Assembly (NCBI RefSeq): GCF_029531655.1
Contig: NZ_JANRMI010000002.1
Location: 806,001 to 870,000, forward strand
Direction of reading: 5' to 3'
Source of the DNA: Bdellovibrio svalbardensis
GTDB taxonomy: Bacteria > Bdellovibrionota > Bdellovibrionia > Bdellovibrionales > Bdellovibrionaceae
DNA length: 64,000 nucleotides
The translations under genes and the position numbers were made by a program. Positions 27,225 to 29,066 of the stretch are shown here, one piece after another; within the stretch, counting starts at the first letter, position 1; the number at the start of each line of letters is the position of its first letter. A model generated the notes under the pieces. The model saw only the letters and a list, made by a program, of their open reading frames with translations. It was not told the DNA's origin and searched no databases.

Positions 27225-28220
27225 ATGGCAAAAATCGTAAAAAAGAAGACGGCGTCAAAACCAGCAGCGAAAGCTGCGGCCAGTAAACCTGTAAAAAAAG
27301 CTCCAGCAAAAGCGGCTGTTAAGCCAGCTCCTGCTAAGAAAGCGGCACCTAAAACTGTCGTGAAGAAAAAGGTTGAAAAGGCACCTGTAAAGGCTGCTCC
27401 TAAAAAACCGGAGTTGAAAAAGAAGGTTGAACCTAAAGTTGAAGCGAAAGCCAAAGTTGCTGCTAAGGTTGAGCCGAAAGCTTTGCCAAAGGCGGAAGCA
27501 AAGGCGTCTGCGAAAGCGGCCCCTGCAAAACCTGCAAAAGAAGTAAAAGCAGAAGCTCCTAAAGAGACTGCTAAAAAAGTTGAGAAGAAAGCTATTCCTA
27601 CTCCAGTTGTTGTGGAAAAAGCGGCGTCTAAAAAAGATGTGAAAGCACCTAAAAAGGGCAAAGGTCCAAAAGGCAAAGAGAAGGACGAGACGGATCTTGA
27701 CGATGATTTTATCGCCGATGATGACATGATGGGTGATGAAATTGGTGAGTACGAAGACGAACTCAAAGCTGTCGAAGAGTCCGAAGAGGAAATCGAAGTT
27801 ATTGAGGAGTGGACAGGCGAAGAAAAAGCCAAAGTCGACGAAGAAGTCTTCCTGACTGATGCTGAAGGCAACCGTTACTGCCGCGCTCGTGATTGCGATC
27901 AGATCGCTGCTGTTGATGTTTACTGCCGTTATCACTATTTGATGTTCTGGAAGAAAATCCAAGTACGTAAGAAGATCCTTATCGATGGCAAGCTTGAGCG
28001 CTACATCGAGGAGCTGACTTCTCGCTATCCTGATAAGTTCCTGGAGATGATCCGTCGCGATTTGCGCACGGAAAAAGACTTCTTGGCTGCAATTCAAGAG
28101 TTGGAGTTGGACGAATCCACTAACGAGAACGAGTTTGAAGAGGATAACAGTGCCTTTATCGAAGAAGTTCGCGGTATGGGCGAAGGCAGCGGCAACGGTG
28201 TTGAGGATGACGAATACTAG
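27225..28220 (+). CDS. Histone-H1-like tail joined to a putative zinc-binding domain
   Basis: Residues 1-150 are almost only Lys, Ala, Pro and Val with repeated AKPAK/KKAP units, like histone H1 or HMGA tails. Residues 160-205 are strongly acidic. Residues 210-260 hold C219-x4-C224-x9-C234-x2-H237 inside GNRYCRARDCDQIA and VYCRYHYLMFWKK, a likely zinc site. A helical and acidic C terminus ends the protein. There is no signal peptide. The basic tail suggests DNA or RNA binding, as in Myxococcus CarD-like regulators, but the core is not CarD. The function is not known. A strong terminator follows. Confidence 0.8.
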   Translation: MAKIVKKKTASKPAAKAAASKPVKKAPAKAAVKPAPAKKAAPKTVVKKKVEKAPVKAAPKKPELKKKVEPKVEAKAKVAAKVEPKALPKAEAKASAKAAPAKPAKEVKAEAPKETAKKVEKKAIPTPVVVEKAASKKDVKAPKKGKGPKGKEKDETDLDDDFIADDDMMGDEIGEYEDELKAVEESEEEIEVIEEWTGEEKAKVDEEVFLTDAEGNRYCRARDCDQIAAVDVYCRYHYLMFWKKIQVRKKILIDGKLERYIEELTSRYPDKFLEMIRRDLRTEKDFLAAIQELELDESTNENEFEEDNSAFIEEVRGMGEGSGNGVEDDEY

Positions 28221-28327: not shown

Positions 28328-28356
28328 TTGCAACGAAGAAATTAGGCTGTTAGCAC
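28328..28356 (+). promoter_or_regulatory. Possible promoter of the riboswitch-nuclease transcript
   Basis: TTGCAA (28328-28333) and TAGCAC (28351-28356) are spaced 17 bp. Start of transcription near 28363 would place the whole aptamer (from 28371) at the 5' end of the mRNA. The -10 box is weak. Confidence 0.35.
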
Positions 28357-28370
28357 TAACCGCACGAACG

Positions 28371-28441
28371 CAAATATATGTCGGAGATACGGTCCGACGT
28401 TTCTACCCGTCGCCTTAAATGACGGTCTATTTGGAGATAGA
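28371..28441 (+). promoter_or_regulatory. Purine (guanine-type) riboswitch in front of a secreted nuclease
   Basis: All parts of the purine aptamer are present. P1 is CAAATA (28371-28376) with TATTTG (28428-28433). J1/2 is TAT. P2 is GTCGGA (28380-28385) with TCCGAC (28393-28398) and the 7-nt loop GATACGG. J2/3 is GTTTCTAC (28399-28406). P3 is CCGTCG (28407-28412) with TGACGG (28420-28425) and loop CCTTAAA. The loop GG and CC bases can form the known kissing pairs. The base equivalent to position 74 is C (28427), and positions 47 and 51 are U, as in guanine-binding members. TCTAT (28426-28430) can instead pair with ATAGA (28437-28441), enclosing the GGAG ribosome site (28433-28436). This alternative is exclusive with P1. 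Confidence 0.9.
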
Positions 28442-28918
28442 ATGAAGCAATTAATTGCTCTTGTCCTGATTACTCTGGTTTCTCTTTCGTCTCACGCTGG
28501 TGGCAACTTTCCGCAAGGACCAGATGCTACTCTGACTCCTGGCGCACTTTGCGACCGCCCAAGTTCACACCGTTATCCAGAAGGTATCAACTACTGCGAA
28601 CGCAATGTTGATTCTTCAACTAAAAAAGACATCTTCGTTCAGTACGATCAAATTGGATACCGCACGCGTTCAATGAACCGTATGGATTTCAAAATCGATC
28701 ATTACATCCCATTGTGCATGGGTGGTGCTAACGCTGAAGAGAACTTGTGGCCACAACACAAAAGCATCTACGCAATCACGGATCCTTTGGAGCCACTTCT
28801 TTGCAATAAAATGGCTGAAGGTAAGCTTCTTCAAAAAGACGCTATCCGTTTGATCAAGCAAGGTAAGGCTCACTTGGATCAAATCCCTGCAATCATGCAG
28901 CAAGTAGAAGCTCTTTAA
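28442..28918 (+). CDS. Secreted HNH-family nuclease
   Basis: The 158-residue protein has a signal peptide (to about residue 19, SSHA) and an HNH-type core DFKIDHYIPLCMGGANAEEN followed by NLWPQH. D86-H87 form the catalytic pair, and N97, N101 and H106 are further candidates. Four cysteines may form disulfides in the periplasm or prey. An upstream motif NYCERNVDSSTKKDI is also partly found in the esterase at 62598. It would cut DNA or RNA outside the cytoplasm, probably in the prey. Its mRNA starts with a guanine-type riboswitch, and ribosome site GGAG lies 5 nt before the ATG. Confidence 0.88.
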   Translation: MKQLIALVLITLVSLSSHAGGNFPQGPDATLTPGALCDRPSSHRYPEGINYCERNVDSSTKKDIFVQYDQIGYRTRSMNRMDFKIDHYIPLCMGGANAEENLWPQHKSIYAITDPLEPLLCNKMAEGKLLQKDAIRLIKQGKAHLDQIPAIMQQVEAL

Positions 28919-29036
28919 TCTACAGAAAATGCCAGGCAAGTTCCTCCGTATAAGGAATTTGCAATCAGCAGCTTAGATTCTCATCCGCGCATTACTTCCT
29001 TAAATAAAATAAAGAATAATCTCGTGAGGGGTAAAG

Positions 29037-29066
29037 CCCACGTCTGATAAAGGCGTGGGTTTTTTA
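29037..29066 (+). terminator. Terminator downstream of the nuclease gene
   Basis: CCCACG (29037-29042) and CGTGGG (29054-29059) pair across an 11-nt loop and are followed by a T run (29060-29066). Confidence 0.78.

Follow-up and report, generated by a model that had tools for sequence, protein, structure and literature searches.

A predicted guanine-class riboswitch adjoining the ribosome-binding site of secreted nuclease genes in Bdellovibrio svalbardensis and other Bdellovibrionota

Introduction

Purine riboswitches are known for genes of purine synthesis and transport. In a 64,000-nucleotide stretch of Bdellovibrio svalbardensis DNA (contig NZ_JANRMI010000002.1, positions 806,001 to 870,000; hereafter the window), a purine aptamer lies in the leader of a gene for a putative secreted HNH-type nuclease, which raises the question of what a purine sensor would control there, in which direction and in response to which ligand. 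We put a probability of roughly two in three on the following answer: the element is a guanine-class riboswitch that turns off translation of a secreted nuclease, and it belongs to a regulon, spread across the Bdellovibrionota, that connects purine to secreted nucleases. Direction, ligand and role are the parts of this reading that we infer.

Identity and conservation of the aptamer

When both strands of the window were scanned against all Rfam families, the purine family RF00167 matched positions 28352-28449 of the plus strand with 51.7 bits (gathering cut-off 37) and an E value of 7.2e-6, covering all 102 model positions. This was the sole riboswitch found within the window. With R1, a model derived from 34 related leaders, the window copy scored 79.4 bits (E 2.5e-17), the window being, by construction, among the 34. 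The aptamer comprises the following elements, of which the helices, loops and junctions were read directly from the sequence.

28371-28433, plus strand: purine riboswitch aptamer core, identified by RF00167 (51.7 bits), model R1 (79.4 bits), covariation in 100 leaders and invariance of pocket and loops
28371-28376 (CAAAUA) with 28428-28433 (UAUUUG), plus strand: stem P1, six pairs
28380-28385 with 28393-28398, plus strand: stem P2
28386-28392, plus strand: loop L2, GAUACGG, 7 nucleotides (nt)
28399-28406, plus strand: junction strand J2/3, GUUUCUAC
28407-28412 with 28420-28425, plus strand: stem P3
28413-28419, plus strand: loop L3, CCUUAAA, 7 nt
28426 (U) and 28427 (C), plus strand: junction strand J3/1, with C28427 the equivalent of position 74

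Conservation was assessed in 100 nuclease leaders aligned to the model from the 34 leaders, with a shuffled control. Paired cells made up 93.8% of the alignment compared with 68.9% after shuffling, the covariation score was 0.741 compared with 0.241, and two-sided changes occurred at 17 of the 18 helix pairs. Position 74 was C in every one of the 100 leaders, and the J2/3 sequence UUUCUAC and the GG and CC bases of the loops were essentially invariant. The window copy carries these tertiary-pairing GG and CC bases in its two 7-nt loops, and it has the marks of the guanine subclass (C28427 at position 74, U47 and U51 in J2/3), not the U at position 74 that marks the adenine subclass. A preliminary description of the locus, made without database searches, had recognized a complete purine aptamer here, with three stems, 7-nt loops, J2/3 and a guanine-type C at position 74, and had proposed scoring it with the RF00167 model; the anatomy is as it described, and the score lies above the cut-off. 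These features point to a guanine-class purine riboswitch, with the ligand predicted from the pocket.

The target gene

The gene behind the aptamer is as follows.

28442-28918, plus strand: gene for a 158-residue secreted HNH-type nuclease with signal peptide MKQLIALVLITLVSLSSHA and motif KIDHYIPLCMGGANAEENLWPQH, assigned from the motif, Pfam matches of orthologues and weak fold matches

The N terminus of the product is signal-peptide-like. Across 32 aligned HNH proteins, D86, H87, N97 and N101 are invariant, as are the tryptophan residues, and H106 is nearly so. The window protein itself scored 12.9 bits against Pfam HNH, under the cut-off of 21.4, and 29 of the 32 orthologues matched HNH_5 with E values up to 0.1 (best 6.6e-5). 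Its AlphaFold model had a predicted local distance difference test score of 89.8, and many structure matches were HNH domains, although these were weak (Z only about 4) and a family missing from such match lists is not thereby excluded. An affibody and DXR also appeared as low-Z side matches and were not used. The gene is single-copy in the genome. The motif residues and the HNH_5 matches support the assignment of the product as a predicted secreted HNH nuclease, in line with the exported HNH nuclease named in the preliminary description.

Distribution across genome, genus and phylum

The B. svalbardensis genome contains exactly two purine aptamers, each before a secreted nuclease gene; the second, in leader L033, precedes a secreted endonuclease I (PF04231). 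RF00167 was carried by 42 of 60 relatives and, in a wider sample of the phylum, by 93 of 369 genomes. These 93 genomes, together with one weak match from a smaller scan, gave 150 aptamers in 94 genomes, and 134 of the 150 precede secreted nucleases of five kinds. The genes behind the aptamers were distributed as follows.

HNH nucleases: 76
Endonuclease I: 39
PD-(D/E)XK-like proteins (GELD...EVKCW): 11
Exo_endo_phos-like proteins: 6, some under the Pfam cut-off
EndoU RNases (PF14436): 2
EamA transporters: 12
DUF3465 proteins: 4

No gene for purine biosynthesis or salvage was found behind any of the 150. Since the five nuclease kinds are unrelated, the common denominator of these targets is their function as secreted nucleases and not descent. 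The preliminary description was right in seeing a nuclease in place of the usual purine genes as the target; what it understated was the extent, with two such cases in the genome and about 134 in the phylum.

The PD-(D/E)XK-like group consists of L045:2092-2664 and ten relatives (alignment A6), which are signal-peptide proteins of about 190 residues with conserved cysteines and invariant GELD/EVKCW motif residues. No Pfam family was found for this group. A structure model (predicted local distance difference test score 91.1) matched mostly PD-(D/E)XK proteins, including NucC, Can2 and restriction enzymes, with Z up to 7.6, and on this basis we predict a secreted PD-(D/E)XK nuclease.

Within the genus Bdellovibrio, the HNH gene was present in 23 of 24 genomes, the 24th being 88% complete. 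In a comparison of coordinates, all 23 orthologues have their start only a few bases from an aptamer, so that the pair, which the preliminary description had suggested looking for in other Bdellovibrio genomes, recurs throughout. Endonuclease I had 57 matches in the 24 genomes, usually with one gene per genome behind an aptamer and the other paralogues without. A separate search of HNH loci in GTDB genomes found the aptamer at the same place in 37 of 80. The rest were mostly labelled Bacteriovorax or Bacteriovoracaceae, and an Rfam scan upstream of 20 aptamer-free loci revealed no known RNA element. By phylum-wide coordinates, the aptamer stands before the gene in nearly all HNH-bearing genomes of family f1 and is absent from those of family f12. 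We also observed that Bacteriovorax-labelled HNH loci (L199-L201, L205, L210 and others) often occur in several copies per genome, with neither the purine aptamer nor another Rfam element before the gene.

Direction of switching

How the aptamer would act depends on the few bases between it and the coding sequence, where the following features lie.

28433-28436, plus strand: Shine-Dalgarno (SD) sequence GGAG, its first G the final base of P1, in a P1-SD register that is constant across leaders
28442, plus strand: start codon ATG
28426-28441, plus strand: alternative hairpin with the SD in loop and stem, -2.5 kcal/mol on its own at 37 C, with exact copies here and in leader L077 only

In nearly all leaders, the start codon lies 12-16 nt past the point where the 3' strand of P1 begins, which leaves no room for a terminator or a separate anti-SD element. 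A terminator scan likewise found no intrinsic terminator in the stretch from aptamer to start codon, the only flag in the leader being the P3 helix itself. In the leader alignment, pair 1 of P1 is invariant, and the bases at pairs 2-5 are complementary much more often than when partners are reshuffled (z 7 to 11). For pairs 6 and 7, the 3' bases fall within the SD in 97-100% of leaders, and the pair is formed in 69-72%; in leader L033, also from B. svalbardensis, GGAGG itself is paired within the predicted P1. Sequestration of the SD by early codons was at first apparent, with the SD unpaired at only about 0.3, and was rejected: such pairing is at the level of synonymous recodings and of aptamer-free orthologues, and there is therefore no conserved ligand-free sequestration of the SD. 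P1 is thus the only conserved structure touching the SD, and because ligand stabilizes P1, we take OFF as the most likely direction.

Under this model, when guanine (or hypoxanthine) is low in the predator cytosol, the short, A/U-rich P1 would be loose and the SD, which abuts and overlaps its 3' strand, would be open to the ribosome, so that synthesis of the nuclease and its export into the prey proceed. Digestion and salvage would then raise the purine level until the three-way junction and P1 are locked by ligand. With a rigid helix beside them, the first SD bases would be buried, and nuclease synthesis would drop, amounting to product feedback.

Several observations weigh against an OFF switch. 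The near-invariance of the SD bases leaves only weak covariation at P1 pairs 6 and 7 (z 2.4 and 1.8), and the overlap of P1 with the SD could be tolerated rather than selected. In the window leader, the six-pair P1 covers one G of the SD only, and the ligand-free minimum-energy fold holds the hairpin between UCUAU and AUAGA, not P1. Predicted accessibility of the SD without P1 also averages only about 0.3. Taking these points into account, we still regard the OFF direction as likely.

The hairpin is the basis for the alternative that survives best, a translational ON switch. It shares bases with P1, and the two are therefore mutually exclusive: without ligand the hairpin would hide the SD, and ligand-stabilized P1 would take UCUAU, freeing the site so that prey purine induces the nuclease in a feed-forward manner. 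ON switches of the purine class do exist, for example at B. subtilis pbuE (cited in PMC12268651). The preliminary description had offered ligand-ON as the mechanism, and its pairing of TCTAT (28426-28430) with ATAGA (28437-28441) is located as it stated and present in the minimum-energy fold. As a general mechanism, however, we rejected this hairpin, as its exact form is confined to two leaders, whereas P1 itself occupies SD bases in most leaders and no selected sequestration was found downstream. Moreover, acquisition genes under guanine-class control, such as xpt-pbuX, have OFF switches (PMC12268651). We consider an ON switch here unlikely. A looser search, for any 4-base-pair stem closing the SD, returned 40 of 85 leaders and was not used, as it had no control. 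It is similarly doubtful, if conceivable, that the switches of the phylum form a feed-forward prey sensor in which the first prey purine turns nucleases ON, at least in the Bdellovibrio branch with the AUAGA hairpin, with the aptamer working as ON in some leaders and OFF in others.

An OFF switch could also act mainly on the mRNA and not purely on translation, if the mRNA, no longer translated, decays faster or is subject to Rho-dependent termination. Degradation or termination is a common fate of mRNAs that are not translated. For Bdellovibrio nucleases, transcript levels also vary over the predatory cycle (PMC7925074). We think this improbable as the main effect, given the lack of an intrinsic terminator before the start codon and the position of P1 against the SD, which indicates translation as the first step.

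The same architecture could instead have 2'-deoxyguanosine, or another nucleoside freed from prey DNA, as its natural ligand, as the preliminary description had also considered. The targets degrade DNA, and a purine-class variant of such specificity exists in Mesoplasma florum, which has the same fold, family and C at the Watson-Crick contact. Its target is ribonucleotide reductase, however, and its J2/3 pocket has C52, C53 and C54 (PMC12268651), the C-rich mark of type I 2'-deoxyguanosine switches, where the window has UUUCUA. J2/3 UUUCUAC together with C74 is the guanine pattern, and it is present in essentially all 100 nuclease leaders. An EndoU RNase is also among the targets, so that DNA products are not their common theme. 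These observations make a nucleoside ligand improbable. A decayed aptamer retained by descent, which the short, A/U-rich P1 of the window might suggest, is very hard to reconcile with an invariant pocket, two-sided changes at 17 of 18 pairs and the same aptamer before five unrelated nuclease kinds.

Comparison with known riboswitches

Compared with the B. subtilis xpt-pbuX guanine riboswitch (RF00167), the aptamer shares the three-way junction, kissing loops, J2/3 UUUCUAC and C74 and, by analogy, would share the role of an OFF switch on purine acquisition. It differs in its exported nuclease target, in having no terminator and in its platform, which is nothing more than the overlap of P1 and SD, about 15 nt or less from the start codon. 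In SAM-II and preQ1-II riboswitches, ligand-bound pairing takes up the SD within a pseudoknot. The predicted working is alike: ligand-stabilized pairing itself would occlude the ribosome site, and no separate expression platform is involved. The aptamers are unrelated, and the SD here is the tail of P1. The aptamer class is known; what is new, as far as we have seen, is the regulon together with the minimal P1-SD platform. A full-text search, with subscription papers mostly outside its coverage, turned up no purine riboswitch reported for Bdellovibrio or upstream of a nuclease gene.

Link to the predatory cycle

One relative genome (G006) is very probably B. bacteriovorus HD100, as a published bd1244 primer sequence lies inside one of its endonuclease I genes. 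It has three such genes, located at 0.89, 1.18 and 3.41 Mb, in agreement with the order bd0934, bd1244, bd3507, and an aptamer precedes the last, so that the aptamer-bearing endonuclease I of HD100 is very probably bd3507. Like the window nuclease, Bd3507, Bd0934 and Bd1244 are secreted nucleases, and they belong to the predatory cycle (PMC7925074, PMC3593177); no riboswitch is reported in those papers, and the 20 nucleases listed for HD100 in the literature do not include the HNH nuclease (PMC3593177). Bd3507 is produced in mid-cycle and reaches the bdelloplast by export. Strains lacking bd3507, or both bd3507 and bd0934, show more extracellular DNase activity, a rise that the authors left unexplained while considering increased translation of another nuclease (PMC7925074). 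Product feedback through an OFF switch predicts such a rise and, if true, could explain it, although the phenotype has other possible causes. Older work quoted in the same paper found that released nucleotides are consumed about as fast as they appear (PMC7925074), as feedback would give.

Across the phylum, model predator included, a guanine aptamer is wired to five unrelated kinds of exported digestive enzyme and to no gene of purine biosynthesis or salvage. Because a predicted guanine switch at the SD of an exported nuclease is repeated phylum-wide for at least five nuclease kinds, the digestion of prey is probably held back by the purines that it releases. This would offer a candidate mechanism at the molecular level for a long-standing question about Bdellovibrio, namely how the breakdown of prey DNA is matched to DNA synthesis by the predator.

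Other features of the locus and other aptamer targets

Two further elements flank the aptamer and the nuclease gene.

28328-28356, plus strand: putative promoter, TTGCAA (28328-28333), 17 nt, TAGCAC (28351-28356), with the start expected near 28363
29033-29063, plus strand: intrinsic terminator after the nuclease gene, 13-base-pair stem and T tail, from the terminator scan

TTGCAA occurs at the same distance in most HNH leaders of the genus, with a looser, TA-rich -10 region; a consensus promoter scan did not flag TTGCAA/TAGCAC. Transcription would start just upstream of P1, and the nuclease gene looks monocistronic. The upstream gene (27225-28220) encodes a 331-residue protein whose N terminus is a long tail rich in Lys, Ala and Pro, after which comes a segment containing Cys and His (CRARDCDQIAAVDVYCRYH).

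The 12 aptamers before EamA transporter genes are in leaders L068, L095, L096, L101, L102, L107, L109, L126, L166, L171, L174 and L191. Nearly all have GUCUCUACC as J2/3, and the stretch between aptamer and gene is longer. In several (e.g., L095, L096 and L101), UAGUCA is able to pair with UGACUA of J3/1-P1, which could be a conventional switching platform, unlike that of the nuclease leaders. The aptamers before DUF3465 genes (L055, L072, L134 and L173) precede signal-peptide proteins, some with weak DUF3465 matches; given the company of the other targets, these proteins may be nuclease-related.
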